NCBI RefSeq assembly: GCF_964355755.1
Contig: NC_092676.1
Location: forward strand, 27,386,288 to 27,450,287
Direction: 5' to 3'
Source of the DNA: Antedon mediterranea
Lineage: Eukaryota; Echinodermata; Crinoidea; Comatulida; Antedonidae
DNA length: 64,000 nucleotides
Below, piece by piece: positions 25,046-54,568 of this stretch. The notes under the pieces were generated by a model that did no database searches, was not told the origin of the DNA, and was given only the letters and a program-made list of their open reading frames with translations. The translations under genes and the position numbers were made by a program. The stretch's first letter is position 1. Each line of letters opens with the position of its first letter.

Positions 25046-26069
25046 TAATTTCATTTATTTGTTACTAATTGATTATAATTCTATGTTATACATCTACAAT
25101 GAAAACAATAATGCAACATTTGATTTATTACTAATTGATTATAATTCTATGTTATGCATCCAATGAAAACAAAAAGTTGCAATTATATAGGAGAGATAAT
25201 ATTAATAAATATTTTGTGACAGCATAGTCATGAATTATAAAGATTGAAAATGCATCTTCTTTTCAGTGTGCTTAAATAAATATTAATTAAGGTTTACTAA
25301 CAGATACATTTCTTACAAGGACTACAATATTAATCTCAAAATTATGATAAAAATATTGCATGTTAAATGTGAAAGAAAGATACAGTATAAGTTATTCCAA
25401 TGGAACGATTGTATTTTATCCAGTACTAACACTAACAGAAAATATACAAAATAGAGGGCGCTATTTCTATGTATTTCTTTATGTTGAGAAATTCGATTTT
25501 TTTACACCTAAAATTACACTTATTGCGTAACTTTTGAAAGCGGGACCGGCTGAATTTGTGTTAATCTAATTATTAACTATAAACTGTGTGAATATCTTCC
25601 TCCCCCCCGTTAGGAGATCACGAAATTCGTTTTCTAGGCCTCTTTTTGGCTCATGCCCCATAGCCTAATATGCTAAGCCGAAGTAGCTAAATAGGCTTAG
25701 CCTACCTAGGTCTAGTAGTAGTAGGTAGGCCTAGGCCTCACCTCACCATATCTCGGTTAGCTCTATTATTACTATTCATTCATTTATTCATTCATATAGG
25801 CCTACATTACATATACTAAACAAAGGCTGGAGGTATATTTTTAAATGCTACGGTTTATACCTAGCCTAGCCTAGGGCCTAGGCCTAGCCTAGCCTAGTCC
25901 TTATCCGAAAAGACTCGTTCTACCATGCCAGAACCAAGGAGGGAGTGAGCCATGGCAATCAATGGAAAATTTAAAATTACATTCAAAGTACATTGGAGAT
26001 ACAGGGTATTTCAAATGCTATTGACATTATAGAAAATTATTTTACTGTATAGTAACATTTCTTTTCAGG

Positions 26070-33374: not shown

Positions 33375-36300
33375 TTAACCAGATGATGTTTCATGTTGTG
33401 ATGGTAGCGTTTCTTCTTTAAACGCTTCAACTGGTTTTGTAAGCGGTTTACCCCAGGCAACCTTTGCTTGTCGGGAACTCGCCACTTGTCCTGTCTTCAC
33501 TGTCGTCATATTCGTCTGAGGATCTCTCTAAAAGAAATATCAGAAAAAAAACTAAAATGTAATTCCACAAAAAGTGATTTCCTGCCCTGGTACTGTCTGT
33601 ATACAAATGTAGCTCATAGTAGTATTGAAATTTAAGGCCTGGTACACACTGCTATAACGTTCGATCCAAAAAACTCAACATAACTCCGGTGTGTACCAAC
33701 CCCCAAAACACAACGAAAATTTAAAAAAATTCTACCGACCTTTTGGTTTGATGGATTACTATCCGTGTGTAAAGCAACGTTCAGTTTCTTAGCCGACCAT
33801 CTTTGTTTTGCCGCACGGACCTTAAAAAAAATCAAAGCTACTATGTTAAATCCACAAACTACCTAAACTTACTGACGTCACCAAATTCGTTATCATGGTT
33901 ATTTCGGTACCATGGAAAACGAGAAAATGCGTCAACGTCGGATAGTAGTCGTTCAAAGTCGCCACACACTGCCGCCCTTATTATGTACATTCCAACGCGT
34001 TTTCATTATCAATCCCTGTAACGCGTCATATACCTACTTCGTTATCCATAACACAGTATACAATAAAGATGAAAACGCCTTGTAATGAGTTGGTGACGGC
34101 AAATATGTATTCGATGACCATGGAGTCTGTAGCTGACATGAGAGGCCCAGTTACCCACGCTACCCCCAGCAGAGGTAGTAACATTAGTGTTCCCTTCACT
34201 GCAGATCTTGGGAGAAAAAATGCAAAACACGTTATCCGCACCGTGCGTCATTTATGAATGTATCTTTGTCATATAATGTATTTATTGTTATTGTCACATG
34301 ACCAGTATTACCATGATACATTTTATTCTAATTACATCAAGGAGGTTATATCAGGGAAGAATTTAATTTAACACTTTCCTGGTTATATTTACAATATATT
34401 TTTCCAATGCAATTATCATCATTATCGGACTTTCTGCATTCTCACTCCTGAGAATGCAGGCTTAAAGCTCCTTGGGGTTTAAATGGTATTCTCCAGGCAT
34501 AATGCAACTATATTATTTACTTAATTTCCAACCACTTGTATCTTTTATATTTTGTATATGTTTGCATTATGTGAATAAATTTGAACTTGAACTTGAACTT
34601 GAGTAAGTACGATCAAAGCATATTGATCGAAACGTCGAGAAACTCAACAGTTCTTTTTCAGAACTAATATACGTGGTGTACCGTAAACTTTATACAAACA
34701 CTACCATCGTCTTCATAATCTTCAATACATATTATAATCATCATTATTAATACTCTACTTTAACTTCTAAATTAATTAAACTTACTTTGTTTTATTATGC
34801 TGCTTTTGCGTATTGTCGGACTTGGTGTGTACTGTCTTTGATCGTTGGTAGATTATACGAATTAGAAATCCCAAAGAAACAATATTGAACTAAACAAAGA
34901 AACAATAAATCGATTATCAATGTTTGGCCAAAGCGTGTATTGATGACAATATATATCTATGTAGGCCTACATTACAGTATACTTATCAGGGAAGAGTTAA
35001 TTTAACTCTTCCCTGATACTTATTTTCTTCTTCTCAGCTCAGAAGAAATTAGAAAAACGCATTTTCGCTACCTAGCACGCACTATTCACCCACAAAAAGA
35101 AAACTACTAAAACATTCTTAAGCTCTGTCTGCACTACCAAACTAGTTTGACAACAAAAGTTTGATGTGCCCAAATATGGTAGTGATATGACATCATCATG
35201 TCCATATATGGGCACATCACATTTTTTTGTCACATAAAGTTTGATAGTGCAGACAGAGCTTTAGTAAAAAATGTCTATGCTTACCATTTCGATAGCGACG
35301 ACTGGTAAAATAACTGCCCACACGCCGTCCTTACTCAACCAACACCTTTGTAAAACACAACAGTAGGCATATTAATGTTGTTTATTACGCTTGGTTCCCG
35401 CTAGGACACAACGCAAGGACGTAAGCGGAACTCAAGGACGTAAACGCAACGCAATGACGTTAGTGCAACGCAAGGACGTAAGCGCAACGCAAGTAATTTG
35501 ACCTATCACAAGCGATTGATTATCATTGATCAACTAGCTCGCATTGCGCGCACATCCTTGCGGTGCGTCTAGTGGGAACCAAACTTTATATCCTTAAACA
35601 TTACTTCAAGAATTCTGAAATCTGAGTTGTCCAAGACAGTTATCACAATAAGCATGTGCCGACGTTCTTTACGCACGGTTGCTTCGTAGTTTTCGACGTC
35701 ACGTATGATCAAATAGTACTGTACCTATATATTTTTAACCAAGATTAGAATGTCCTTTTAATATTATAGCAAATGTTTGCGCTACGTGCACCCCATGTTA
35801 CCGTCCATAGATAAGCTACACTTACACGTCCGATGAATCGGGGGCGTACAGGTCGGTTTTGGACACCAACAATATTGCAACCAATACAAGTGGCGTTCCA
35901 TAACAAACCAGTAGGTAGTTGCGGATTTTGTTGAATTTACTTGGTGTTTTCTTCACTACTTTGAATATCAAATACACCGCTTCCGCCAGCATCCACATCA
36001 AGGAATTCAGGAGGAATAGATGTAATAAAACGGCGACAGTTTTACAGGCCGCCTGAGGAATAGACAAACAAGGAAAGAGAACATGAAATGCCAAAAAGAT
36101 AAACTTTAAGCTATATGACCTTTTGAACTTATGTTTCTTAATTTCAGTTTATTTCTTAAAACAACCAATGTTACCTATGTTATTCTATACTCGTAAAATT
36201 CACCTCATTTTGTTTTATTTTGATTAATAAGTACCACAATTGCACGATGTTCCCGTACTTAATTATAATTACATTAATACAATTTAAATAAGTTACCACA

Positions 36301-37177
36301 GTTGAGCAGTGTTCAATTCTTTACTCAAATAAATAAGTGAGCTAGTTGTAACGGCCTTGTTCCAAATTTAAATATTTCAGAAATACGTAAATAGTTTAAT
36401 ATTCAAATCAATATCGCACGTTAATGTAATATTTATACATTGAAAATTGTTATGGCCAACATTTTAATACACGAAAAATAAATGATACGTGATTTTGAAA
36501 TGACTTAAGTATCCTTTCCTAATGTTCATATATTGTACACTAATTATTCTTAGTAGTTCTCGACATTATCGTCAATAATTTATAAAATAATGTACGTTTT
36601 ACCGTGTCCTTGGCGTATTGAATTCCACCAATGAAAAAAATATAAAATATTAACATATTTCCGACCAAGTTTTTATGAATTGCGTTCCTTAGTGATTTCC
36701 ATAGCTCTCTGTAGAAATAAAAGCCACATTATTCATTTTCAATATTTTATTCATTATTTTGTTTTTTTAGAATATCATCAGTAACAAAATTAAGATTTTT
36801 AATGGATAAAATCTTGGAAAATCAAAACGTACGTAGGCCTAAACGTAAACAGTCAGAAATACAAATTTAGAATATACCCCTAGATGTTGACACTCGTATC
36901 ACAATTAATGTTACTTTGGAAAAGTGCCCTCCTTCATATTCTCAGGGTTCGGGTTCGTGTTTTACATTTTTACAACAAATTCATTGGTGACGTAATTAGT
37001 TCTACCGGTGACGTAGTAGGCCTACCGGTGACTTAATAAGCCTACCGGTGACGTAATACGTTACCTGAAAAATATGTAGGTGACAGCGGTAAAGATAAGC
37101 GCTATGATTGAGATACTTAGACCGACGTAAGTGATGTAAGACAACAAAGTTTGGTGTTCAGACTCCAGGCTAGATGT
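33375..37177 (-). CDS. Seven-helix (7tm_2) part and tail of the adhesion GPCR
   Basis: TM1 lies in 37177-37065 (YITYVGLSISIIALIFTAVT), TM2 in 36708-36603 (NLVGNMLIFYIFFIGGIQYA), TM3 and TM4 in 36052-35826 ('LNSLMWMLAEAVYLIFKVV', 'NYLLVCYGTPLVLVAILLV'), ECL2/TM5 in 35345-35285 and 34889-34786, and TM6/TM7 in 34206-34038 ('LLPLLGVAWVTG', 'NSLQGVFIFIVYCVMDNE'). The MWMLAEAVYL and LQGVFIF motifs are hallmarks of family B2. ECL2 carries the expected CWLSKDG cysteine. The last two exons encode a basic then Thr/Ser-rich tail ending SQHETSSG. For exon 34206 the acceptor at CCAAG, not the later TGCAG, restores the frame. Confidence 0.88.
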
Positions 37178-40100
37178 CTAAATAAGAAGAAAAATTTTAC
37201 ATTGTTTTTGTACCTCAATTATTATTTTATAAATTAGGTTTAAAATCGTAAGAACGTACGCGCAACGTACCGGTAATTGACAAATCAGAAGCAAAAGTAG
37301 TCCTTCGCATCTGATTGGTTAATTTTCTTGCGGCGCGCTACGTCATTATGTTGCATCGTAATAAGAACCAAAAAATGTTATGTTGAAAACGTTCAACGAA
37401 AAATCGTCAGTCATTTGGTGAAAAATGAGATTTAAATCGGTTAAATGATCGTACACATTTGTTTTGAATTTCAAAAAGAAAATGTGACTGAGTACACATT
37501 TCCTATACATAACAATAGATAAATACACTACACCTATAACCACCTTTTCCCGCAACTTTCCGCCCTACACTTTTCTCACCTGCGTACTAACACGCATCAG
37601 GACGCCAAAGCTCGTCAGGTGGTTACAAGTACAACGAACCAAGCTATCAAAAACGTTCGAATCCGTGTGACATCCGTCAAACGACCAAACGCTGAAGATG
37701 TGGAAAATTACATAGGAAATGAGTTACTTATAATGATGTGAGATTTGTATTGTCGTTTACCTTGAGCGTGTACGAGGAAATGAAAAGATGTAAAACAAAT
37801 ATCGTAGATGTCCGTCGTATTAAATGCACCTGAGTTAATTTACTGGGAGATGAAATGAGTTAGACCGTGTATCCGACGATTAAATCGCTATTCAAATTTG
37901 TTAATACACGCTGTAAATGTGAACGGGAGTTTACACAAGTTATTTCGCACGGCAAAAAATGATGTAGGCCTACCCGAGATAAACGGGTTTTATGATATAT
38001 TAAGATTCAAATTAAAAATTCAGCGCCCTGGTGGTCAGGTTTTGCAAGCGATCACACTGGTAAATAAATCATTAATTATATCTACAATTAGTCGGGTCTT
38101 GAACCAATTAAATAATTTAAACAATAACGATATGATATTACCTGGTGTTATATTCAGGATCTAGAAATGCACAATGTAACGATGCCCCCTCTGTTTCAGA
38201 AATATTAGCCTGTTGAATTGATACAAACTTATTATTAAAGTTATAAGCCATACAGATATTTATTGACTGTTGTTTGATTTTGAAAACATACGGTACATAA
38301 GATGTGGTATTAGTATGGTACCAGGGATAGCCCTATAAATCCCCAAAAGAGGATTTGTCCCCAATTGTGGCTGTACAACCTACGCCCTTAACTAATTCTC
38401 ATCCTTTTCTTCTGAAAAGGTTCTCTCCTGGGCACCGCTTCCCTCACATCACCTTGCGTTGTCTTTTATTTTAACATGAACCAACCTTAGTAATCAATAT
38501 GTTGTATGTAACGTTCGCCTTTACTCTTGTCTCGTCGATAGCGAACACACTTATTGACAGGTAATCTGTTACCATCTCGTATCGATCAACTTCGAGCGAT
38601 GTAGATCTAAACAAAAAAATAAAAAATAAAAAAATTGTCGTTTCGTGTTTTTTTTTTCAAATATTGCTAATGATCATGGAAAAAATATAAATAAAAAGGC
38701 AAAAAAAATTAAAATAAAAACAATACTAAGTGTAGTACGTGAGATATCAATGAAAACTGTATGTTATTTTACTTAAGCTTGGTTCCCACTAGAACGTAAC
38801 GCAAGGACGTAAACGCAACGCAAGCGTTTTAACCAATGACAAGCGAAGTTATAGACAGTTAGCAATCACAAGCGAATAAGCCATCGCTTGTGATTGGTTA
38901 ATTCACTTGCGTTGCGTTACGTCCTTGTGTTGCGTCGCTAGTGGGAACCACGCTTTAGTAAAATTCAAACAGCCAAACGAATACCGTATAGCTATATATG
39001 ATGGATACCCAGACCTCTTTAAAAAAAAATAACAAAACCCTTTTCAATTTCCCTGATCTGTTTCCAGACTATCTTTCAAGTTGTATAAATTTGATTGTTT
39101 TTAGGCCTCTGTATTTATATATATTATATGTATTTAAAAAAAATTATTTTTTAAATGTAGGCCTATTTATTTATATTATAAATAAAAAAGAAAAAAACTT
39201 TTACCGACTGTCTGCCGTCACTGATACATTTACAGGATGGTCAGACTCCCAGTAATTTGCCATCACTATTACGGGACCTGTTGTAATGAACATAAATTAT
39301 ATAACATGCTAGTCACTTAACTTCTCACCGTATGAAGTGACTAACAGTATAAGTGATACTGTGCAGGGGAGTGCTAATTGGAGATACGGGGTGGGGAGAT
39401 AAAGGGTGAGGGAACAGAGGGTTGGAAGATAGAGTGTGAGGGAACAGAGGATGGGGATAAAGGGTGAGGGAACAGAGGGTGAGGAGATAGTTGGTGGGGG
39501 AACAAAGGGTGGGGAGATAAAGGGTGAGGGAACAGAGGGTTGGGAGATAGAGGGTGGGGACATAGAGGGTGAGGGAACAGAGGATGGGGAGATAGAGGGG
39601 GAGGGAACAGAAGGTTGGGAGATAGTGGGTGGGGGAACAGAGGGTGAGGAGATAGAAGGTGGGGGAACAGAGGGTTGGGAGATAGAGGGTGAGGGAGATA
39701 GAGGGTGGGGGAGATAGATGGTGGGGGGAACAGAGGGTGAGGAGATAGAAGGTGGGGGAACAGAGGGTTGGTAGATAGAGGGTGGGGGAGATAAAGGGTG
39801 GGGAAGATAAAGGGTGGGGAAGATAAAGGGTGGGGGAACAAAGGTGGGGTAGATTGAAGGTGAGGGAGATTTAAGGTGGGGGAGCAGAGGGTTGGGAGAT
39901 AGAGGGTGGGGGAGATAAAGGGTGGGGGAACAGAGGGTTGGGAGATAGAGGGTGGGGACATAGAGGGTGAGGGAACAGAGGATGGGGAGATAGAGGGGAG
40001 GGAACAGAGGGTTGGGAGATAGTGGGTGGGGGAACAGAGGGTGAGGAGATAGAAGGTGGGGGAACAGAGGGTGGAGGAGATAGAGGGTGGGGGAGAGGAA

Positions 40101-43100
40101 GAATGCCTTGCAAAGCAGTATTTTCTCCACATGGTATGTTATAACAAAAAATTGATATGAAAAAAGTTCATAAATTTCGGCCGGATCCTCCTTCCCTGTG
40201 CGCATGCGTTGAGAAAGTGAAATTTAATTTGTTTTTATATAACGATTCGTATTGTTATTTCAGTAAAAGGAATAAGAGTGATAAATTGGTCAGATGTTTT
40301 GCCATTCTCTAATTAATATTTTTAAGTCGATCGAACTAATATTACAAAAATAAAATCGTTTTTTATAACATCAATTGCCGCCGGTTTTAGCCACGTTGGT
40401 GCTATGCACACCTGTATTCTATCTTTTAATCAATTCAAACTGCAATTATACATAGAATTGATTTTGTGACTACAAAATAGTAGTTAACGGCGGAATTAAC
40501 TTAAACCGGATTTTAGTCGTGATTAAATGCACAGCATTTAAGTTACGTTATTATTTACATTTTATATACAGTATGCAATGCAATGTAAAGTGTTTGTCTG
40601 ATCTCATTCAGTTGAATATTATGGGGCGCCATGCGCAGCATGACACTTTTTCTGCGTATGGCGCCCCATAGAACATACCGCCGCACTAATTTTTTACTAT
40701 AGTATCGCACGTCATATACGCATAAATGGATGATACCAATGCATACTGCAGGCTTAACCAAATCAATTTTAACTTTCAATGTTTAGAGACTTACATATAT
40801 GCTGGAAATAAAAACATCACTTCTTCCCAAATATGTAATTGTAGACATAGGTAAAATGAGCCCCGGGCCTCGGTAGAAACATAAGTAGGCCTACCGCATA
40901 ATTGTCTGAAAGCGTCGATCGCACATTGTGTAATAATCGCCGCGTGACTTGTCGCACTTTGTAAAAGTTGTCGCACGTTGTTAAGACGCCTACCACCGCG
41001 TTGAAACTTACACCCTAAATATACGCGCTATTTGATCACAATCTGCGGTGGTAGGCCTATTTATAATAATAATAAATACGTTTGTTTTTTTTTAAAATTA
41101 TTATTATCGACCTACCGGTTGTGGCATCAGCAACGTATACAGACATTGTTACGTCTTTATCCCTTTCGGATACTGTAATATTCTCCAGGCTGATGGAGTT
41201 GTTTAATATCACCACACGACCATCTGCCGAAGGAATAACAACAATAGTTAAAAATGGTAATTCGCGAAATGTATTAATAAATTGTCGGTCACAGTGAGTG
41301 CGACCGATATTGACATTAACGTAGTTTTCGTGAGAAAAATAAAGGATTTATACTACTTTGTTATTTTTTATTCATTATTCTGTGGTTTATGCAGCAGAGG
41401 TTCTTTATTTAAATTTAAAGGCCAATTTACACAGACGAGCGGTACAGGTAAGCGGAAAACCGCGTAGTTTGTCCCACGTAGAGCAGAAACGGGCCGTTCG
41501 ATCCGTGTTGTGTATATAAAAACAAGAATAACATAGATTCTAAACTTTATATTACCGTTACCGCTCGTCTGTGTCAATTGGCCTTAAAACATGTTCAGAT
41601 CTACATGGATTCCGCAGAAAATGAATTATTTTGTAACCTACTCAATATATCGCCTTCGGTTGAGCATTCTAGTAAGTCGGTTGATGAAACTCCACTTGAA
41701 ACACACTTTAGAAACGTTGACTCCACACATTCTATTGATGAAGTTATAGCTACTGGATCCTGTAAATAAATCGAAGCAAATTCGGTTAGTCGGTCGGTTA
41801 AGGCCAACTCAGCACAGCGTTCGACAAGGCCCGACGAAACGTCTTGACACGCGGTGCTGTCTGAGTTGAATCCCGAAAAGACGAGTCGTCGATCGTGGGA
41901 TAGCGTCGGGCGTAGTTTTTAGGTCGTCGGGAGAACATTACAGATGTTTAACTTTCTCCCGACGACATGATTCGTCGGGCCTCCTCGTAGTACGACGCTG
42001 TCCGGGGAGGTGTTTAGTCACCCAGATGGGTCATTTGATCTCTATATTAATGTACAGGTAGTTATGTTACTCTGTATACTTACTATGTCAACTAACTGGT
42101 CGTCTGTGAGACAGGATTCAAGAATGTAACTATTTTCCAAAAATGTTTCGTCTTCTGTGAACATAAAAACAATGTATAAAACTAATACAGTAGGCCTATT
42201 TTAGAGTTTGCCTGGTAATAATAATAACAAATGAGCGTCGCAGTCGGTGGAAACGCGTCGCAGTCGGATATTCGTCGCAGTCGAAAGTGCGTCACAGTCG
42301 GTGAACAAATAAATAATTTTATGAGTTACCTTGTTCGCAAATTGTCGGGTAGGATCTGTCGCAGGGATGGTCGTACCATTTGAATTCATTTCTCGTATCA
42401 ATGTATACACAGTCCTCTGAACGGCCAAACGACTGACCGTTATTCGGCTCACCTGTCGAGAAATCTTAAAAAAAGTAACGTGGGTTAAAACTTGAACAAT
42501 AATTAAATTTATTTAGTCTGTAATTCGCATCCACATTGAAGTTGGTCATTTTGTTTATTCATTTCTGTATAAGATGTTGTAAAAGACAAAGGGTAACTTA
42601 ATAGACCTACAACAGGAAAAATAATTTTCTCTAAATATTATTATTATTATTTTAATTTCATATCTTTTATGCATACAAAAAAAAGACATTTAAACAAAAG
42701 CAAAATTAGAAAAATAAGTTAATAAGTTATATAACTTATTTCTTCATGATATAAAATGAAACAATAATGAATAAAGCACAATAACTTGACAATTGTGGAA
42801 AACAAATAAAATAAGTAAAAGTATAAAACGTGAGCAAAACACTTTTGCAAGCGTTTTACCATGAAATAATAAGGTATCTCATCGTTAAAATATATATTTA
42901 ACCATAACTTAAAACTGTTACTGTAGATGCGAAAGGTACTATCTCATCGTTAAAATATAACTTTAACCATAACTTAAAACTGTTACTGTAGATGCGAAAG
43001 GTACTATCTCATCGTTAAAATATAACTTTAACCATAACTTAAAACTGTTACTGTAGATGCGAAAGGTACTATCTCATCGTTAAAATATAACTTTAACCAT

Positions 43101-46100: not shown

Positions 46101-49100
46101 TCTTCACTTTTCTTTTTAATTGACCTAAACCTTTGCCTATATGTCTCTTCAGTTATGTCATACCTTTGTAATATTGCTTTCTTCACTATGTCGTACTGGT
46201 TACTTTCTGTCACTGGTAGTGATGCATAGGCTGCTCTTGCTTTGCCTGTCAAATGAGGTATTAGTTTTACTACCCAGTGTTCTTTTCGCCACTCATAGGT
46301 GTTAGCAATACGTTCAAACGTAGTGAGATAATTTTCAATATCATCACTATCAGAAAGCTTTGCAATCTGAACTTCCTTCAATCTCATTATGTCTTTTAAT
46401 CGTTTCTCCTCACTGTCCTTTTGCTTGTCCATTAACGCCATTACTAATGCTTGCTGTTTCTCCATATCTTCCCTACGTAAACGTTCTTGTCTTTCCATAT
46501 CTTCTTTGCGTAAACGTTCTTGTTTCTCTATATCTTCCTTGCGTAAACGTTCTTGTTTCTCTATATCTTCCCGACGTCTTTCATTATCTTCTTGACGTGA
46601 ACGTTCTTGTTGTTTCATCATCTGCTGCATCATAATATTCTGCTGTTGCATTTGCTGCTGCATCAACAACAAAAAGTCTTTTGAAAATGAGTCAGCCCCT
46701 GTAGGGTTATGTCCACTGGTTGGTCCAGACTCTTCTGCCTGTTGTTCAGGTTGAATTGATTGAACTGATTCTACATCCGAATCAGTTTCATCGCCGCCGC
46801 TGTATTCTCTACCGGATCTTGTTGTTGATTGTTTATCAGCCATTTTTTAAATCTGGATGAGGGTCTTGTTACTAGTTAATCGTAGTTACCGAGACGTTCA
46901 CAAGTCTACTGTTCCAAATAAATAATGTACTGTTCTTAAAACAATGTTTGTGTACTTACGATTAAACAAAACGTAGCACCACGGCTTCCGTAAAATATCT
47001 CAGTATCGTAAGTACCACTTCCTCAAAATATCAATAAAAGTACAGTTGATCCTAAACAGCCACCAATCTATGGCAAAATACAGTAGATCAAACTGCTACC
47101 ACAAAATATCACAACAGTACTGTAGATAAATACACAGTTAAGTCGAACAGTAGATCGAAATAACCGCTGCCACCAAATTATGTCACGAACTCCTCTCACG
47201 TATGTTTCCGAGCGGTTGAAAATACTTTAGGAACTCCCTTGTGACATAAAAGTATACACACAAAATCCACAAAGTTGTAAAATAACTCAAAAACAAAGCT
47301 TTAATTTCAATCAACTTCAACTTTCAACAATCCAGTAAGCACTTTAAACAACAGTTTCACAATAACTTTACAATATAATATCCAACCTCTAATCCAACAA
47401 CCTTCTTCAAAATAAATGCTTCAATCAAAATCCTTCTCATTATTACATGATTACAGTTTCTATTAATAGCACTTCTGGAATGTTCTTGATTGTTCTTATT
47501 AATTATACATGGTTTATTAAATCAAAACATCTTATTCTAGAATGTTCATGTAAATACTATGTTACTCTATATGTTAGGGAATGGTAATTTATTACAGATA
47601 TAAATAAATATGGTAGTGATATGACATCATTATTGATCCGAATTTTTTAATAAAAACTTTGTTCCTAGTTGAACCTGTCTTGAGAGAGCTTGTTTGAGTT
47701 TCTCCAGATACAAGGCATTAACTATTAATTTAATTCATATTTTGAATTTTGCTTTTTGTAAATAAATAAATGAATGAATATGGGAACATAAAATGATGTT
47801 TTCACATAAAGTTTGATATTGTGGACAGAGCTGAAGTCTCGGGGAGAAAAACATGCAATTTGAATATACATCATTTTAGCTACAACATTGAGGCGATCGT
47901 TAATTTTTGTTGCGTTATATGCATACATTTACACATTTTATGATTTTAATTTCCTTTATACAACTCCCTGGTACAGTTAATAGGTCAATTTGAATCACGA
48001 ACCCCTTGATTGACAAAAGTAAATCAAAGCAAGGAAACTATTGCTATACGGCTTGTTTTCATTAAGCGGATATCAGGCAAGAGCTTCACTCTTCCCTGGC
48101 GGATATTATGTTGTTTTTTTTTCAAAGAATATTTTGTAATGAGCTAATGGATAGGAAACAGCCTTACACACGATCTTGCAATAGTTGTCTTTAGTCTATT
48201 ATTCTATAGTGTTATTATAGTGTTATCATCATCTTATAGAGCCACAGTAATTAGTTCTGTCAAAAAATCTTTAAGTGATAAACACAATATTTCGGTATAT
48301 CTTTATTAAACAAAAAAGTCAATGACACAAACAGCCGATGGCTGAAACCGTAGTCGTACATTATAAAATAAATATACAATCATAATAAAAACATCAAAAT
48401 AACATTACAAAACATAAACTTCGTTTAACAGTCTAGCTATAGTAGGAACAGGTGATTTCTTAAATCGCTCAGTTCTGCCAAACGGAATACGAAGGAGGGG
48501 GCGAGACCGAAGGCGGACACCAAGTTCGCGACAATGAGGGAGCAGTCCCTAGTATTATTCGAAGAGCTCGTTTCTGGATTCTCTCAATCGCACGAGACTT
48601 CTCCCCAGTTAGGTAACCATGCCACACAGGACAAGCATATTCTAACAAAGGTCTAATATAAGCTAAGTAAACATTAATAAGGTCATTCATTGGTGCATTG
48701 GCCTTTTTTTAGAATGCATAATGTGAACAATTTTCTCGAAGCCCTACGTACGATATCATTAACATGAAGATTCCATCTTAAGTTATATCACTACCATATT
48801 TGGGCACATCACACTTTGTGAAAATTTTTTTTAATCGAAATGCTAAAAAAATAATGCAAAAATAAGCTATTCTAAGCAGTTTGAGGTATTCAACTCGATA
48901 AATTAAAAAGGTTTTCTTGTAGTTTAATCTTGTTTCAAGAATAATAGAACTAAGCAATTGAACACAACCATGGGTTTAATACAATGCTGAACAACAAACC
49001 TAATTAGAGTAGAATCAGTTTTTATATTAAAAAAAGAAACGAGTGCATAATAATAGATGTAGGATCATAATAAAAAGGTAATTATACTATTCGTTTAATA

Positions 49101-52100
49101 CATTGTCATGATTAAACTAATAAAAACAGTGTTAGGCAATAATAGTCGTTTTTTAACAAGAGATAGTACAGTGTCATTTTACACAGAATCGATTATTATT
49201 ATATTCACTGTACTCTTCTACATTATCCAACTTTATATTGTGACAAAAAAATGTGATGTGCCCATATATGGACAGGATGACGTCACATCACTACCATATT
49301 TGGGCATATCACTACCATATTTGGGCATATCACTACCATATTTGGGCATATCACTACCATATTTGGGCATATCACTACCATATTTGGGCATATTACACTT
49401 TTTTTGGTCAAGATTATATAGTTTGATAGTGTAGATAGAGCTTTAGTAATATCCGAACCAAATGTATTCCTTTGTGAATAGAAGACCAGTCAATATTGCA
49501 GACGCATTTGCATGTGGAAATTGAGTATACATTTTAAAATAAATTTAAATTAATAAATTACTTTAAAACGCTGCTTTGCTTTGTTGATAATTACATATGA
49601 ATATTGGAGGAACTCCATACATAGTTTTAAGAACAGAATTCATGACAGTTGCAATAGTTTGATTCAAACCATCGTACTTCCACAATCCAACCTACATCGG
49701 CGTTGGTGCAAATTTGTATTTAGGATATTGTAGGTTGGTTTTGCGGAAGTTGCTTATCTTGTTAATTTTTTAATGAAATTGTTTTCCTTTTTTGTTTTTT
49801 TTTAATGATTTGTATATGGATGTACTATCCGAAATAAAGAAAATAAATGAATGAATGAATACGGTATATTATATTGATTCTTGTAATGTTCTTGTTTGTA
49901 TATTTAAAAAAATAAATAAATGAACTTTATTCAATCAATCGTCCTTTTTTTTATAATGGTAACCATAATGAGGTATGATATTACAGTAGATTTTTACACA
50001 AAACAATATAAATATTAGGAATATTAGGAAAATATTAAATGAAAAATTGTTTTGACTTTGATAGAACGACAAATTAAATAAATAACAAGCCTGCATATGA
50101 ATATATTGATGGGTGATCTGAAAAAATTAATTGGGTTGCGTGAATGAATAATGCTCGCTATATATCATATTCGAAATTAAACGCACATTATTCGAATAAT
50201 TAGTGGTTATAATGTGATTATAATGTAAGCCTACCTGAGTAACCACTTAAAGTAGAGCCATCCACCCACACATACGTGCCCTCTGTGGCTATGTCACTTA
50301 GACCAATCCACATCTTGTTAGAGTCTACAGATAATCTAATCGCATCGATAGCAGACTGTTCTTGTGCAGAATCGATGATGAGCAAGTGTTGTCCACTTGC
50401 CTGGCACGACGAATTGTGTGATTCCCAATTCATATAGTTCAGGTTTGTGTAGTAGCAGCTATCGTTGTAACTGTATGTACAATCTGTTATATTTTACGAA
50501 TACCATAATTAAGACCAATTAATGATAAAATAGTGATTTCGGCTTCGCCAAGAAGGCAAACATCACAATAATATGACTGGACATTTAGCTCACGTGAGTA
50601 GCAACAACATCCTGCAGTGTTAGTGCTAAGATTCCATTTTCGTTAATAATAATATTAAATTTACACGTTTACATTTAAACTACGACGCTCAAAGGAGAAA
50701 CAGAAGTACAGACTTACCCAACTTAAATTCGCGATCTCAAATCTTGGTAAACGCATGGACTAGCGTAATTACCAAATAAGCCAATTGCAAATCATATTTT
50801 TTTATTATTTTATAATGGTTTAAAAAAAAAACCCAAAATATATATTTCATTACAATTTGTATTATGGAGAAAGGAACACATTACCAATGACATGTCACTG
50901 GAAGTGGATATCTTCCTACTCACCTATTCCACACAATGCTTGAAGTGGTGTCGTACATTCGGTAGTGTTTAACCCCTGATTACTTATATACAAGCAGTCA
51001 CTTGAACCTAAAGAAATACACCATCGGTTAGTTGATAATTCATTTAAAGATTAGGTCTACTTTTTAAAAATGCTAAAATATCTGTATTACCTTCATTACC
51101 AATCCAGAGTTTGTCGTCATCTTCTAGACGGCTTTTAAAATAGTCAATTTGCGACGTGTCATTGGTGACGTTCGGTAAGTTCCCGTTTATACTACCACAT
51201 GAGAATTCCTGGCTGGTCCAAGTCTTTGGTTCGGACAAGAGTAGATAACACGTTGTATTCCAGACAAAATAGCAATCTGAAATAGGAAGTAGGCCTGTTT
51301 GTGAGTAATTGGACATGGCCTACGTAGTTGTTCAATCATCATAAACAATAATTGTTATTCATATCATCATAAGATGGAGAGGATGAGAAAGTCTTTCGTT
51401 TCTTTGATTGTGCATTGTAGGATATATATTAACTGAAGTAATATATGATGTTGTCGTTATCGAGGATATGGGCCTCTGAGTGGAAGCATAAAAAGGCATT
51501 GTTTTCGGAGGCACATTTAAACGGTTTTTGATACACGCGCGTAACTTTTTGGCGGTAATGCCTACACTTACTTCGTTCACACATAGCTTGCAATGACGCA
51601 TGGCATGGCAGATCGTTCCAGTTTGTATCTGACGAGTATGCGTACATCTCGATACAATTTTCTCCACTACCACCCCATATCCATCCATTGTCGGGTTGAG
51701 CATCAGCGAAATCTAAAATTGTAAAAACAAACCCAAACAATGTTAGCCTCTCGTAAAGTTAGGTGTATCTTGTTGGTCAAATTACTTGCGCTGCACGTCT
51801 GTTCTTACGTTATGTTCAGTGGGAGCCAAGTTGCAGGGCTCTGAGATTCGGTCGGTTGTACGTGCCACTCGATGCACGTAAGGACCTACGCGCAATTTAC
51901 GTGACAAATTGGATGAACTGTTTTTTAATTAGTCAACTTACGTTGCGCTTACGTTTAGCTTTTTACAGATGTTCATTAACTTACCACTATACGTTGGACT
52001 CGTCATGTTGTTTGACCATAAGAAATCTCCTTCGTTAATCTGGTCGTTAAGCCCAATCCAGATGTTAGATGTACTAACGCTAAAATGCGTATTGATTGCG

Positions 52101-53605
52101 CCTACGATGATATCGCGTTCTTCTTCTGAGTTGACCTCTAACATATGTCTTTCTTCAATAATTCTGCATTCGTCGTACTGATCTTCCCATGGTAATGATC
52201 TCTGTACGACTGTATAACAACGCCCAAGACGTTTAAAATCACACTCTGGAAAGAAAACCGGAGTTTGGCCACCATTATGAACCAAATTGGCGGATTTGTT
52301 TGACGGTGACACTTCGTGAGTAAACAACCACGCGTAGAAAACACCCTTTATGTACGCGCCCTCTCTCACATTGTTTTCCCTTTCAGTAAATTAATATTTG
52401 ATATTAACATCACGTCCCTCGTAACAGAGAACAATAAGGTAATCTTCGTAAATAGTGATGACAATTTCAAATAAGAGAGAGAGAGAGAGAGACATTATAC
52501 ATGACCGGACCTCACTATGACGGATTTGCATATTGTTCAAAGTTTGCAGGCGCTAAAATAATTATATGGAATAACTTCCAACTGAAATTATTAAATATTA
52601 CCCAACAATATCGCTTCATTCAAAGCTAGATATCGATCTCATTTTTCTTCACAAAAATAAAAATTTTTCGCCCCCCTGATTTTTTGTATTTAAGACAGGA
52701 ACACAATGCAAAACAGGTTTTCTTTTACCTGATTGTGTAATCGATCCTTTATAAAGATGTTTAAAAAATGAATGTTTTTTAAACTCTAACCTGCCATCCT
52801 GGAGTCGATTCTCGGTCGACCTAAGCCGTACTATTATTATATTTCTACAAATTGTCTAGTACAATTTAGAAGACAAATTCCATTATAGGTCCAGGCCTCG
52901 TCACGTGTCCCAGCCAGCCGCTAAAGCTTGGTTCCCACTTGGACGCAACGCAACTACGTAACGCAACGTTAGTGATTTGACCAATCTCAATCGGTGGATT
53001 GTTCCAACAGTCGCTTGTCATTGGTCAACTCGGTTGCTTTGCGTCGACGTCCTTGCATCCTTGTGGGAACCCAGCTTTAATTTAGATAACCTTCATAGTA
53101 CAGACAGTACACGAGTGACTAAATCCCCCCCCCCCACCCCACCACCCATAATGAAAATACAATACAAATAACGCTCAGATATTAGAGCTGTTGATGAAAA
53201 AGTAAACTATACCGGTACTTGGCTAAACGTGGAATTGCCTTTTAAGAGTTATCTTAACGCACAAGATGTTTTCATTTCTTGTTCATTGTTTTGATTGACA
53301 GGAAAATGAAATTGGTTTAATATTTTAAAATGTACAATCCGTTTGAGTGGCTTTGTATGTTGTAACGATTGTCTTGGTTTAGTGTTGTGTTTATATATGT
53401 TCTATGAACGCATTTACAAGTAGAAAGGACAACACATCAGTGACCTTGTTTTCTTGTATATCACACAATATCATCTCATCTCATCTCATTATTTAATTTG
53501 TTAGGTGGATATCTTTGTTGTTTTTGTTTGTTGCTTTTTATTTTAATTTTTTATTTGATTATGTTTTTCCTTTGTAATGTATTATATGATGAAATAAAAA
53601 ATAAT

Positions 53606-53636
<31 letters not shown>

Positions 53637-54568
53637 CATCTCATCGTTTCATTAATTTTGTGACAGGAATGTAATTTTTTTATAATTTTAAATTTATTTT
53701 AAGGGATATAGGCAAGCATTTTAGTTTAAGATACAGAGCAAGTGAGGATCAACATCATGTGAGTGAAATGGCCGAGCGGTTAAATCAAGGACGCCGTTTA
53801 CCGTACCTAAAAGAGCCAACAAGGGTTCGAAGCCGACTTGCTCCTAGTTCTGGTGGTGGAACAAGTCTTCTCGGATAAGGACTATAAACCGTAGGTCCAG
53901 TGTACACAGTTATAACCCGTGTGCACTTTAAAAAATCATTCACGACGAGTAGGGGTTACCCAAGTGAACTGGTTCACAAAATTTCCCCTGCATCAGAGGG
54001 TTGTCACCTACCCTGATAGGACAGTGATTAATTTACTATTGGTAATCCTTGTGCCTAAATATAAAATAAAACCCACAAACATAATATTATTTTAACATAA
54101 GTACAAATAAACGTAGTGTTTGGATCAGGAAGCCCTTAAGAACGAAGCGCACGAAATCTTATAGGCCTAGAATGCGCGTGTTTTATAAAAAGCGTCTCCC
54201 AACAGGACACTACATTTTATATTGTACCTTGCACCATACAAAACTGAAAAGTATATAAAGCTAAAACTATAGGATAATCTTTATATTGTCTATGATGAAA
54301 ATGGATATTATAGAGTATTCAATCCAATCAATTGACGTCATTATAAAAAAAAACAGTGACATTAATACAACACAACAATTAAATTGATTATGACATTTTT
54401 GATTCAATTTGTGAATGTCATTTTCATCAAAGATACGATAAACAGTTAATTACAACTTTTTGTTTGTTTTCTGTAGAAAAAAATATCTCTTTATTAACAC
54501 TTACCAGCACATGAGAAATATATCCAACATATTTGAACAATTAAAACAACTGCCTCCGCATGAAACAT
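33375..54568 (-). CDS. Adhesion GPCR with three C-type lectin domains (22-exon model)
   Basis: Exons in transcript order: 54568-54505, 52245-51985, 51712-51572, 51276-51091, 51007-50924, 50483-50235, 42452-42330, 42154-42084, 41759-41642, 41223-41116, 39277-39205, 38606-38486, 38209-38142, 37691-37580, 37177-37065, 36708-36603, 36052-35826, 35345-35285, 34889-34786, 34206-34038, 33820-33740, 33527-33375. Every junction is GT-AG and in phase, giving about 930 residues: signal peptide, three CTLDs, a GAIN-like stalk, a canonical GPS, seven membrane helices and a tail of ~75 residues. Adhesion GPCRs cleave themselves at the GPS and are activated by the exposed tethered peptide. No human adhesion GPCR that I know carries a CTLD; polycystin-1 combines a CTLD with a GPS but is not 7TM. 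The least certain exons are 41759-41642 and 42154-42084. Two genes fused by my model is the main alternative, but the phase continuity argues against it. Confidence 0.78.
34440..34605 (+). repeat. Retroposon 3' tail with TTGAAC repeats
   Basis: The text runs into 'gtgaataaatttgaacttga' and several more TTGAAC units. LINEs of the CR1 group often end in short tandem repeats of this kind. No coding part remains. Confidence 0.4.
34987..35019. repeat. 33-bp perfect palindrome
   Basis: ATCAGGGAAGAGTTAA is followed immediately by its inverted copy TTAACTCTTCCCTGAT. A partial relative lies at about 34349-34375 and another at 48067-48103, so it is probably the hairpin end of a dispersed element. Confidence 0.6.
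35116..35265. mobile_element. MITE family A, best-preserved copy
   Basis: Ends 'aagctctgtctgcactacca' and 'tagtgcagacagagctt' are inverted, with 'aaactagtttgaca' and 'tgtcacataaagttt' next inside and 'gggcacatcac' within. It lies between TM5 exons of the adhesion GPCR. Confidence 0.8.
35390..35585. mobile_element. MITE family B copy with tandem 'aacgcaaggacgtaag'
   Basis: Starts 'cttggttcccgctaggacac' and ends 'gcgtctagtgggaaccaa'. The words AACGCAA and GGACGTAA are repeated four times near the left end. It also has the 'gacctatcacaagcgattga' core shared by the family. Confidence 0.78.
37580..42154 (-). CDS. GAIN-like stalk and GPS of the adhesion GPCR
   Basis: Exons 42154-42084, 41759-41642, 41223-41116, 39277-39205, 38606-38486, 38209-38142 and 37691-37580. 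The middle exons have β-rich, N-glycosylation-rich text ('GRVVILNNSISLENITVSER', 'PVIVMANYWESDHPVNVSVT') as expected for GAIN subdomain B. Exon 38209 has 'LHCAFLDPEYNT', and exon 37691 has 'VWSFDGCHTDSN' then 'VRCTCNHLTSFGVLMRV'. The Trp, the paired Cys residues and the His-Leu-Thr cleavage triad are all present, so autoproteolysis should work, releasing a tethered agonist beginning TSFGVLM. Exon 41759-41642 has no family motif and is included because it joins the flanking phases. Confidence 0.8.
38774..38956. mobile_element. MITE family B copy
   Basis: 'cttggttcccactagaacgt' at the left and 'cgctagtgggaaccacgctt' at the right, with 'acgcaaggacgtaa' and its inverted form just inside. The interior has two 'caagcga' blocks in opposite orientation. 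Confidence 0.78.
39379..40096. repeat. 0.7-kb purine-only minisatellite
   Basis: The plus strand is almost wholly A and G apart from scattered T: degenerate units such as 'gagggaacagagggt' and 'tgggagatagagggtg', about 15-32 bp. On the transcribed strand of the adhesion GPCR gene it reads as a long C/T tract in the intron between 41116 and 39277, ending about 100 bases before the exon 39277-39205 acceptor. Open frames across it (Pro/Ser-rich on minus, Gly/Glu-rich on plus) are composition artefacts. Confidence 0.9.
40617..40672. repeat. Hairpin 'tatggggcgccat'
   Basis: TATGGGGCGCCATGCGCAG at about 40620 is matched by CTGCGTATGGCGCCCCATA ending near 40671, leaving a ~17-base loop. Probably a small foldback element; no coding role. 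Confidence 0.6.
41418..41586. mobile_element. MITE with 'aaggccaatttacacagacg' ends
   Basis: AAGGCCAATTTACACAGACG at the left and CGTCTGTGTCAATTGGCCTT at the right are inverted over ~27 bp. It lies 56 bp beyond the donor of exon 41759-41642 in the adhesion GPCR gene. Confidence 0.75.
42330..50483 (-). CDS. Third C-type lectin domain, split by a 7.8-kb intron
   Basis: Exon 50483-50235 encodes 'DCTYSYNDSCYYTN' to 'KMWIGLSDIATEGTYVW', and exon 42452-42330 encodes 'GEPNNGQSFGRSEDCVYI' then 'FKWYDHPCDRSYPTICEQ'. The join creates YSGEPNN in frame. This is a full CTLD with the four core cysteines, the WIGL motif and an EPN motif, known from Ca2+-dependent mannose-type lectins; the usual WND is WYD here, so Ca2+ binding is uncertain. 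The intron contains the 65-bp satellite, the LTR element, a LINE fragment and several MITEs. Confidence 0.85.
42870..43653. repeat. 65-bp satellite, about 12 near-identical copies
   Basis: The unit 'gaaaggtactatctcatcgt', then 'taaaatataactttaaccat', 'aacttaaaactgttactgta' and 'gatgc' recurs every 65 bp. The first copy lacks a few bases and has 'tatatatt' in place of 'tataactt'; the others appear identical. There are no spacers, so this is not CRISPR-like. It lies in the intron that splits the third CTLD, a few hundred bases from exon 42452-42330. Confidence 0.95.
44027..44442 (-). repeat. 3' LTR (element on the minus strand), 416 bp
   Basis: Begins TGTCACGAAC and ends TTTATTACA in plus text; on the element's strand this is TGTAATAAA...GTTCGTGACA, i.e. 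TG...CA ends. It appears identical over 416 bp to the copy at 47181-47596. Just inside, on the element strand, a purine run (AGAAAGAGGGGGGAG) is the polypurine tract. GATAT at 44022-44026 is the left target duplication. Confidence 0.93.
44516..46843 (-). CDS. Gag-protease-integrase N-terminal polyprotein of the LTR element
   Basis: One open frame of 775 residues. After an acidic N-terminus comes a tandemly repeated charged coiled coil (units like EKQERLRKED, ~residues 75-135), then a capsid segment whose end ('YRQRFRSIKKKSEESYREMY') resembles the SCAN domain, a CX2CX4HX4C zinc knuckle (CRRCKKVGHIERFC), a retropepsin-type protease with 'ILIDSGCDMTLV', a basic linker, and the H2C2 zinc-binding part of integrase ('AGHLGRKKTLDRIKQ', 'CNTCENCQ'). 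The frame then passes 'RQIYMNIVG' into unrelated text and stops; the catalytic integrase core, RT and RNase H are absent. The break therefore lies shortly after the zinc-binding domain. SCAN domains are thought to derive from a Gmr1-like capsid, which fits. Confidence 0.9.
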   Translation of the reverse strand: MADKQSTTRSGREYSGGDETDSDVESVQSIQPEQQAEESGPTSGHNPTGADSFSKDFLLLMQQQMQQQNIMMQQMMKQQERSRQEDNERRREDIEKQERLRKEDIEKQERLRKEDMERQERLRREDMEKQQALVMALMDKQKDSEEKRLKDIMRLKEVQIAKLSDSDDIENYLTTFERIANTYEWRKEHWVVKLIPHLTGKARAAYASLPVTESNQYDIVKKAILQRYDITEETYRQRFRSIKKKSEESYREMYVRLKDLFTKWARPADKSKDDLAEIVILEQLIDIMPTGVQIWVKEHKPDSGLNAAELADNYFQARKGIDFEKKFQNRKHENRNNQEKTVKGTPEVDSKGNNNPPDNFHKSQSDARQPLVCRRCKKVGHIERFCRSKDGFLSTKTDTVSKPCTPYICRGLVEGCDCEILIDSGCDMTLVHSDLVAAKKINRAEQAKITCRCVHDHVQAYPTAFVNIKVNNEDHNLLVGVCSDLPRDVILGRDFPKFGDLLGKRDKNHDRHSFVATRDHARKEKLREENELKSEKASGVISHQLDDVVNFQEEFGHLDGQLLSNNPPKEKVHKTRSEKRKVRKEFAKTKEAQSSQDSELDILDIGRDKIKDYQVKDRTLISLREQMLVQKDDDTIKIVCKDGILFRQVFTKHQTEPIEQLVVPYPCRNSVLKVSHDIPLAGHLGRKKTLDRIKQRFFWPGIRKDVTEYCNTCENCQKTSKYKTKFKGPMIPMSVIVSEPFRQIYMNIVGSLLVIINNYVLCYYGVIKFYRLGVG
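47181..47596 (-). repeat. 5' LTR (element on the minus strand), 416 bp
   Basis: Same sequence as 44027-44442. On the element strand it is followed after a few bases by TTTGGTGGCAGCGG, in the position of a primer-binding site; I do not assign the tRNA. GATAT at 47597-47601 is the right target duplication. Confidence 0.93.
48268..48783 (-). pseudogene. 5'-truncated LINE reverse transcriptase fragment
   Basis: The minus strand reads 'LKWNLHVNDIVRRASRKLFT', then 'YIRPLLEYACPVWHGYLTG' and 'RAIERIQKRALRIILG'. These are the conserved motifs after the catalytic part of Jockey/CR1-type LINE reverse transcriptases. Downstream the frame shifts and ends in an A-rich 3' tail around 48270. The 5' side stops at 48783, where a fragment of MITE family A begins. 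Dead fragment in the intron splitting the third CTLD. Confidence 0.75.
49224..49443. mobile_element. MITE family A copy with expanded 20-bp internal repeat
   Basis: Between the usual family ends ('actttatattgtgacaaaaa' and 'tagtttgatagtgtagatag') the internal word 'ggcatatcactaccatattt' is repeated about five times in tandem (about 49284-49392). Other copies have one or two. A plus-strand frame with SLPYLGI repeats is a by-product. Confidence 0.8.
50924..51276 (-). CDS. Second, short C-type lectin domain
   Basis: Exons 51276-51091 and 51007-50924. The text runs 'CYFVWNTTCYLLLS', 'WTSQEFSCGSINGNLPNV', 'DDKLWIGNEG' and then directly 'SSDCLYISNQGLNTTECTTP' and 'LQALCGI'. The core cysteines and WIG are present, but the segment between WIG and the third cysteine is cut to a few residues, and no EPN/QPD or WND motif is present. 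It should fold as a degenerate CTLD without Ca2+-dependent sugar binding. Confidence 0.82.
51572..52245 (-). CDS. First C-type lectin domain
   Basis: Exons 52245-51985 and 51712-51572. It contains 'CDFKRLGRCYTVV', 'NIWIGLNDQINEGDFLW', then 'DAQPDNGWIWGGSGENCI' and 'NWNDLPCHASLQAMCER'. All core cysteines are present, together with a QPD motif (galactose-type in known lectins) and an intact WND motif, so Ca2+-dependent glycan binding is plausible. The exon split after the WIGL strand is the same as in the other two CTLDs, which indicates tandem domain duplication. Confidence 0.88.
52923..53079. mobile_element. MITE family B copy
   Basis: Left 'aagcttggttcccacttgga' and right 'cttgtgggaacccagctt' are inverted, with 'gcaacgcaactacg' and the inner 'gatttgaccaatctcaatcg'. 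It lies in intron 1 of the adhesion GPCR gene. Confidence 0.78.
53180..53634 (+). repeat. Poly(A)-tailed retroposed sequence
   Basis: The sequence ends with 'gatgaaataaaaaataat' followed by a run of about 35 A interrupted once (53595-53634), the signature of target-primed insertion of a polyadenylated RNA. The body shows no coding frame I can assign. The 5' limit is uncertain; a C-rich run lies at 53126-53146. Confidence 0.45.
53737..54085 (+). repeat. tRNA-derived SINE
   Basis: A polymerase III A box lies in 'atggccgagcggttaaatc' (~53768) and a B box in 'agggttcgaagccgac' (~53822), with a class II (Leu/Ser-type) tRNA look including a long variable part. The tail 'ggactataaaccgtaggtcc' ... 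'ccctgataggacagtgatta' continues ~230 bp and ends in AT-rich 'ataaaataaaac'. It lies in intron 1 of the adhesion GPCR gene. Confidence 0.65.
54505..54568 (-). CDS. Signal-peptide exon of the adhesion GPCR
   Basis: Encodes MFHAEAVVLIVQICWIYFSC plus A and the first base of the next codon; the donor is GCTG|GTAAGT. Joined to the acceptor at 52245 it gives ...CA-ECDF in frame, a short positively neutral n-region, a hydrophobic core and a small-residue cleavage site just before the first CTLD. The exon is too short to stand out alone; phase and content make the case. Confidence 0.7.

Follow-up and report, generated by a model that had tools for sequence, protein, structure and literature searches.

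A predicted adhesion G protein-coupled receptor with three tandem C-type lectin domains in the crinoid Antedon mediterranea

Does a stretch of the Antedon mediterranea genome encode one receptor in which lectin domains are joined to a seven-helix membrane domain, and if so, how might such a receptor work? The stretch (contig NC_092676.1, positions 27,386,288 to 27,450,287; 64,000 nucleotides, called the window here) carries a set of exons that an initial annotation, made from the letters alone, had joined into an adhesion G protein-coupled receptor (GPCR) with three tandem C-type lectin domains (CTLDs). Adhesion GPCRs carry ectodomains assembled from interchangeable modules, and few of these receptors have a known ligand. 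Here, we argue for a glycan-binding, self-cleaving adhesion (class B2) GPCR encoded by a single gene, a best reading that we hold with about even confidence.

RESULTS

The exons form one open frame with a conserved counterpart in Anneissia japonica

The exons joined into a single open frame on the minus strand of the window, from an ATG at 54568 to a stop at 33375 (Table 1). All 22 annotated exons were recovered in that frame, each of the 21 introns had a GT donor and an AG acceptor, and one border required correction. The acceptor of exon 7 was moved 12 bases upstream to 42464 (ttttttaag followed by ATTTCTCGACAG), which added the residues DFST and restored the CTLD spacing; DFST matches in length the NFRG of a counterpart protein from the feather star (crinoid) Anneissia japonica. 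The first joined model had 931 codons including the stop (930 amino acids) and was the version used in the Pfam search and the first database search; the corrected model has 934 residues and a terminal stop only. Domain borders placed by hand divide the corrected model into CTLD1 (residues 22 to 155), CTLD2 (156 to 245), CTLD3 (246 to 373), a GAIN-like region (374 to 585), a tethered-agonist-like strand with a stalk (586 to 609), a seven-transmembrane-helix domain (7TM; 610 to 857), and a tail (858 to 934). Pfam matches above cutoff were Lectin_C (1.3e-34), GPS (2.6e-08, residues 545 to 587), and 7tm_2 (5e-44), and the seven-helix domain is of the adhesion type that marks members of class B2. 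The GPS motif CNHLTSFGVLM and the B2 membrane part named in the initial annotation were thus borne out, and a signal-peptide-like hydrophobic start was seen by eye.

The top database match of the spliced protein (E of ≤0.001) was a predicted Anneissia japonica protein of 979 amino acids, recorded as adhesion G protein-coupled receptor L2-like isoform X2 (P0001; NCBI/UniRef), which carries Lectin_C, GPS, and 7tm_2 and matched with 1024 bits, 99% query coverage, and 52% identity. A MAFFT alignment of the two proteins gave 55% identity and an identical order throughout, with sugar-site and GPS motifs alike; the Anneissia protein differs in a longer CTLD2 insert and a longer stalk between the GPS and the first transmembrane helix (TM1). 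Moreover, tblastn of the Anneissia protein against the window (E of ≤1) matched 19 of the 22 exons individually, in order and on the minus strand; exons 1, 8, and 22 were unmatched, and nothing was matched beyond 33.7 to 52.3 kb.

One way in which such a model could arise is by the wrongful fusion of two neighboring genes, a secreted lectin (exons 1 to 7) and a GPS receptor (exons 8 to 22). Intron 6 (50234 to 42465) is long and contains repeats and a retroelement, and the exons are joined here on the basis of genomic sequence. The retroelement, however, falls within CTLD3 itself, between the two halves of the domain, and the lectin-coding exons 2 to 7 each begin in phase 1, with exon 7 terminating in a donor and not in a stop. 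Uniform phase 1 is the pattern expected for shuffled extracellular modules. Furthermore, the exon 7/8 junction lies inside sequence conserved on both flanks (CEKEDKSFLEN versus CEQEDETFLEN in Anneissia), and the Anneissia protein, by spanning it, contradicts a break between exon 7 (42330) and exon 10 (41223) and upholds the single annotated gene at the level of gene models. Since the Anneissia protein crosses the junction and tblastn matches the exons in order, the two-gene explanation was rejected, and we consider it very improbable.

We give equally little credence to a decaying or unexpressed copy. A young retroelement with identical long terminal repeats (LTRs) in intron 6 and the missing loop of CTLD2 might point that way, but the frame is intact, the splice sites are present, the 7TM is 76% identical to that of Anneissia, and the shortening of CTLD2 is common to both animals. 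We conclude that the locus reads as one adhesion GPCR gene and not as a chance assembly of exons, judging by its sequence and that of its counterpart.

Two of the three CTLDs retain sugar-site motifs

The three CTLDs of the initial annotation were all matched by Lectin_C, with CTLD2 proving degenerate. When single domains were run against the Lectin_C model, CTLD1 scored 52.2 bits and CTLD2 scored 27.9 bits (cutoff, 22.6); CTLD3 holds the top Lectin_C stretch of the whole protein (residues 263 to 369). The best stretch of CTLD2 spans positions 2 to 46 of 107 only, and the sugar-site loop is missing. In the C-type lectin fold, QPD indicates a galactose-type site and EPN indicates a mannose-type site. 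CTLD1 bears QPD and WND, CTLD3 bears EPN with WYD instead of WND, and CTLD2, by eye, bears neither. These features are kept in Anneissia, where QPDNG and WND occur in CTLD1, where EPNNG, SEDC, and WYD occur in CTLD3, and where CTLD2 is also shortened. Sequence alignment to PDB entries indicated MRC2 as the best match of CTLD1 and the second best match of CTLD3; QPD of CTLD1 and EPN of CTLD3 align with QPD and EPN of MRC2, respectively, and the second of the MRC2 domains so matched bears EPN and WND.

Alternatively, the CTLDs of the same single receptor could be protein binders or structural adhesion modules rather than sugar receptors. Many CTLDs whose Ca2+ site is incomplete work in that way, and here CTLD2 is shortened, CTLD3 has WYD, and a clam receptor described below has a CTLD in which no EPN, QPD, or WND is seen by eye. 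CTLD1 and CTLD2 are also less conserved between Antedon and Anneissia (41% and 40% identity, respectively) than is the 7TM, with CTLD3 at 55%. Nonetheless, QPD, WND, and EPN are all retained in two animals despite domain identities of 41 to 55%. We regard CTLDs that do not bind sugar as the chief rival explanation and as quite conceivable, if a minority chance. We conclude that the conserved motifs are suggestive of glycan binding by CTLD1 and perhaps by CTLD3.

The GPS is canonical and is preceded by a GAIN-like region

The GPS sequence CTCNHLT occupies residues 580 to 586, in which HL is followed by T and then by the remainder of TSFGVLM, and this H-X-S/T motif lies just ahead of TM1. The GPS motifs are conserved in Anneissia as CTCNHLT and TSFG(V/A)LM. 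The published rule places the cut N-terminal to the S/T of H-X-S/T (PMC13062082 and PMC9672506), and by the H-L-S/T form of that rule, self-cleavage is predicted between Leu585 and Thr586.

AlphaFold was run on the Anneissia protein with an alignment of 13 sequences. In the resulting low-confidence model, the GAIN-like region begins with a single helix and continues as 12 strands, with TSFGALM in the final one, and the 7TM is the best part, with 10-residue means of the predicted local distance difference test (pLDDT) of 55 to 90. The top Foldseek match of the model was inactive CD97 over 526 columns, and as this is about twice the length of a 7TM, the GAIN-like region appears to have been matched as well. 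Structure alignment with VIA-align also matched the 7TM to adhesion GPCRs; its rows span mainly 641 to 916 and are not informative on GAIN or the CTLDs.

Several observations weigh against a glycan-binding, self-cleaving receptor. The gene model rests on genomic sequence and on a predicted protein model from Anneissia japonica, a species for which transcriptome sequencing data exist (project PRJNA553591; PMC7351957). CTLD3 does not have the Asn of WND, nor does CTLD2 have the sugar-site loop. ADGRB2 is reported not to be cleaved despite a canonical HLS (PMC13062082), so that possession of the GPS motif is not in itself proof of cleavage in the Antedon protein. Neither the Antedon protein nor its Anneissia counterpart reached the GAIN model of Pfam (PF16489), and the same model detects GAIN in the clam receptor (P0003) and in three latrophilin-type receptors (P0002, P0004, and P0022). 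When the pre-GPS region was compared by hhalign to the GAIN regions of those four receptors, probabilities were 0.1 to 0.3%; with the GPS included, the probability was 96% over 63 columns, which comprise the GPS and a few residues upstream. The AlphaFold model had a mean pLDDT of 47.6, with values of 31 to 64 in the GAIN-like region, and left the CTLDs unmodelled, probably because most other rows of the alignment carry different ectodomains. Finally, the match to CD97 had a root mean square deviation of 16.8 overall. We take the AlphaFold model and the CD97 match as support, short of proof, for a GAIN domain whose helical part is reduced; the initial wording, a GAIN-like stalk, was apt, as PF16489 was not reached.

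The crinoid receptors form a clade apart from a clam CTLD receptor

Three protein searches (E of ≤0.001) returned 20, 6, and 20 proteins; the first two scored the 8000 and 7998 candidates with the most shared words, and the query of the 6-protein search was the GAIN-7TM portion of P0001. No protein identical to that of the window was among those returned, which fits a crinoid other than Anneissia japonica as the source. Lectin_C and 7tm_2 occurred together in P0001 and the Mercenaria mercenaria clam protein P0003 in the first search (2 of 20), in P0001 and the Branchiostoma lanceolatum protein P0025 in the second (2 of 6), and in P0001 in the third (1 of 20). Among the proteins returned, the whole domain order was seen only in the Anneissia protein; with the first two limited to those candidates, the searches do not show that sea urchins, sea stars, or hemichordates lack such a receptor. 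The lineage-specific architecture suggested initially thus looks lineage restricted. The GAIN-7TM search also found P0021 (Anneissia LOC117107191), which combines F5/8 type C, GPS, and 7tm_2.

P0025 was considered as an amphioxus parallel and was not used as support. It has the order fn3-GPS-7TM, with a partial CTLD (1202 to 1269) behind the 7TM (664 to 913) and a hydrophobic stretch between them by eye, and it may represent two genes fused in the model.

A tree was built from the GPS and 7TM regions of 12 rows, the window protein and 11 others. For a first tree, also of 12 rows, the GPS pattern missed 5 of 15 proteins, and although P0015 was restored by hand, the other four were lost; the present tree omits P0005, for which the GPS pattern had no match, and P0015, P0023, and P0025, which had long branches in the first tree. 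The window protein paired with the triple-CTLD receptor of Anneissia (100/99), P0021 joined this pair next (100/99), and the clam CTLD receptor fell outside this crinoid clade. A topology forcing the three CTLD-bearing rows together was worse (p-AU of 6.4e-06), a value that is less clean than stated in that the CTLD clade was named for the test after the first tree had been viewed. Rejection of that grouping suggests separate acquisition. We conclude that there is fair evidence, from few rows and a tree whose backbone did not resolve, for separate gains of the lectin domains in the crinoids and in the clam. The discoidin-bearing relative P0021 also suggests that ectodomains may have been swapped within crinoids on one 7TM lineage.

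CTLDs are abundant elsewhere in the Antedon genome. A Lectin_C profile search in which 150 of 530 candidates were scored gave at least 154 matches, and among the matches listed, CTLD stretches are tightly clustered in places (for example, C3:29.085-29.107 Mb and C1:36.79-36.85 Mb). None of the matches listed falls within the window, where the division of the CTLDs among exons is the probable reason.

Features of the window

Table 1. Exons of the receptor gene and other features of the 64-kb window
Feature	Position	Strand	Content
Exon 1	54505..54568	-	ATG and hydrophobic signal-peptide-like start (residues 1-21), judged by eye; ends phase 1; no tblastn match alone
Exon 2	51985..52245	-	CTLD1, first part; Pfam and tblastn
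Exon 3	51572..51712	-	CTLD1 end: QPDNG (residue 114), GENC, WND (140-142)
Exon 4	51091..51276	-	CTLD2, first part; Pfam and tblastn
Exon 5	50924..51007	-	CTLD2 end, without the long-loop sugar-site region (loop loss by eye from alignment)
Exon 6	50235..50483	-	CTLD3, first part; Pfam and tblastn
Exon 7 (corrected acceptor)	42330..42464	-	CTLD3 end: EPNNG (residue 334), SEDC (344), WYD (358-360)
Exon 8	42084..42154	-	GAIN-like region begins; no tblastn match alone
Exon 9	41642..41759	-	GAIN-like region; helix predicted in Anneissia model
Exon 10	41116..41223	-	GAIN-like region; strands predicted
Exon 11	39205..39277	-	GAIN-like region
Exon 12	38486..38606	-	GAIN-like region
Exon 13	38142..38209	-	GPS motif region begins
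Exon 14	37580..37691	-	GPS; CNHLTSFGVLM at 37627..37595; Thr586 codon 37615..37613
Exon 15	37065..37177	-	Short stalk and TM1
Exon 16	36603..36708	-	TM2
Exon 17	35826..36052	-	TM3-TM4
Exon 18	35285..35345	-	Extracellular loop 2 (CWLS) and TM5 start
Exon 19	34786..34889	-	TM5 end and intracellular loop 3
Exon 20	34038..34206	-	TM6-TM7 with NSLQGVFIF
Exon 21	33740..33820	-	Cytoplasmic tail
Exon 22	33375..33527	-	Cytoplasmic tail end and stop; no tblastn match alone
LTR retroelement	44027-47596	-	Intron 6, same orientation as the gene; separates the halves of CTLD3
Retroelement frame	44519-46846		SCAN-type gag, protease-like matches, integrase zinc-binding domain
Tandem repeat	42875-43654		Intron 6, adjoining the retroelement; twelve 65-bp copies, 99% match
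Tandem repeat	39380-40096		Part of intron 10; imperfect, period 15/30/45 (GGAGATAGAGGGTGGGG-like), strong GC skew
Tandem repeat	9769-11363		88 bp, 18.5 copies, 93%; overlapping open frames there are repeat products
TRIM-like frame	3198-5012	-	605 codons; RING, B-box, and NHL repeat matches
Exon-like stretch	16322-16819	-	L-galactono-1,4-lactone dehydrogenase similarity (9e-10)
Exon-like stretch	26025-26363	+	Root lateral formation protein RLF (4.7e-10); cytochrome b5 reductase 4 weakly (0.0011)

The retroelement of intron 6 has two LTRs of 416 bp and a 5-bp target duplication, ATATC, seen by eye, and it is taken to be young because the LTRs are identical. The gag of its frame matched Pfam at 4.9e-24, and no reverse transcriptase match to the frame was found in Pfam. 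A SCAN-type gag together with an integrase after the protease recalls Gmr1-like elements. Neither exon-like stretch had a Pfam match at 0.001; that on the minus strand perhaps belongs to a gulonolactone-oxidase-type gene, and that on the plus strand may be exon 1 of a gene of the CYB5R4 type.

DISCUSSION

If the Antedon protein is a glycan-binding, self-cleaving adhesion GPCR, it would be exported, fold a short GAIN domain, and cut itself at Leu585-Thr586, with the lectin array remaining noncovalently attached to the 7TM. CTLD1 (galactose-type QPD with WND), probably in a Ca2+-dependent manner, and CTLD3 (mannose-type EPN with WYD) would bind glycans on neighboring cells, matrix, or particles, and CTLD2, without its sugar-site loop, would serve as a spacer. 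Load on the bound array, or its motion, might then free TSFGVLM to enter the 7TM and switch on a G protein. The array was apparently gained inside a crinoid receptor group, the nearest member of which, among those found, bears a discoidin domain instead. A bolder proposal, which we consider rather doubtful, is that crinoids independently rebuilt an adhesion GPCR as a dual-specificity lectin receptor, in which a galactose-type and a mannose-type CTLD flank a sugar-blind spacer and in which a self-cleaving GPS and a tethered agonist would let one protein turn glycan contact, or a pull on a particle, microbe, or cell, into direct G-protein signaling. With sugar-site motifs that can be read from its sequence, such an array would make glycans a defined class of ligand for probing the pull-and-release model of tethered-agonist activation.

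By title or abstract, no crinoid or triple-CTLD adhesion GPCR appeared among the papers listed from the open-licence literature searched, in part from the first papers of longer results (20 of 186 and 20 of 55). The available parts of the repertoire papers on Ciona (PMC2396169), Amphimedon (PMC4302439, whose main text does not contain "lectin"), and two sponges (PMC6208332) contained no CTLD-adhesion GPCR. In the available part of a 2026 family review (PMC13197933), choanoflagellate adhesion GPCR ectodomains are called diverse, rhamnose-binding lectin is the only lectin named in the human domain legend, and "C-type" is not in the first 300,000 characters.

The initial annotation knew of no human adhesion GPCR ectodomain with a CTLD; the pairing itself is not unknown: an Anneissia relative is in NCBI, and the same pairing was in print by 2008, the earliest print found, as a Lectin C-type domain in amphioxus adhesion GPCRs (Nordstrom et al., PMC2246102). 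The clam protein P0003, named ADGRL4-like, also bears an N-terminal CTLD on an adhesion GPCR and differs in having a single CTLD, a Ser/Thr-rich stalk, a GAIN domain recognized by Pfam, and a 7TM outside the crinoid clade. The nearest other 7TM in the 12-row tree, that of P0021, differs by its discoidin-type domain and has no Lectin_C match.

Latrophilins (ADGRL) resemble the Antedon protein in having a GPS, a 7TM, and a lectin-type N-terminal domain, and they share a name with it through the NCBI record of the Anneissia counterpart, which already bears the name ADGRL2-like. The three latrophilin-type receptors, however, carry a SUEL lectin, HRM, and a Pfam GAIN domain, whereas the Antedon protein shows none of these by Pfam, and no match to SUEL/RBL lectin, olfactomedin, or HRM was found in it up to an E value of 1. 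As to a grouping of the 7TM with latrophilins, its nearest neighbor beyond the Anneissia counterpart, in a 12-row tree with an unresolved backbone, was P0021, which has no latrophilin domains. The name ADGRL2-like is not backed, because the latrophilin marker domains are missing, and automatic names of this kind can mask different receptors.

The mannose receptor family (MRC1/MRC2) likewise has tandem CTLDs, in greater number; to our knowledge, proteins of that type have neither a 7TM nor a GPS. Polycystin-1 combines a CTLD with a GPS/GAIN in one protein, much as CTLDs and a GPS are combined here, and has 11 transmembrane helices with PLAT (PMC9672506), whereas the Antedon membrane part is 7tm_2. 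Neither PLAT nor the polycystin channel region was among the seven Pfam families matched up to an E value of 1, in keeping with the separation from polycystin-1 drawn initially. We conclude that the Antedon receptor, though uncommon, is a genuine variant within a known receptor family, and that it is not categorically new, because the amphioxus pairing was printed in 2008 and the clam protein has one CTLD before GAIN-GPS-7TM.
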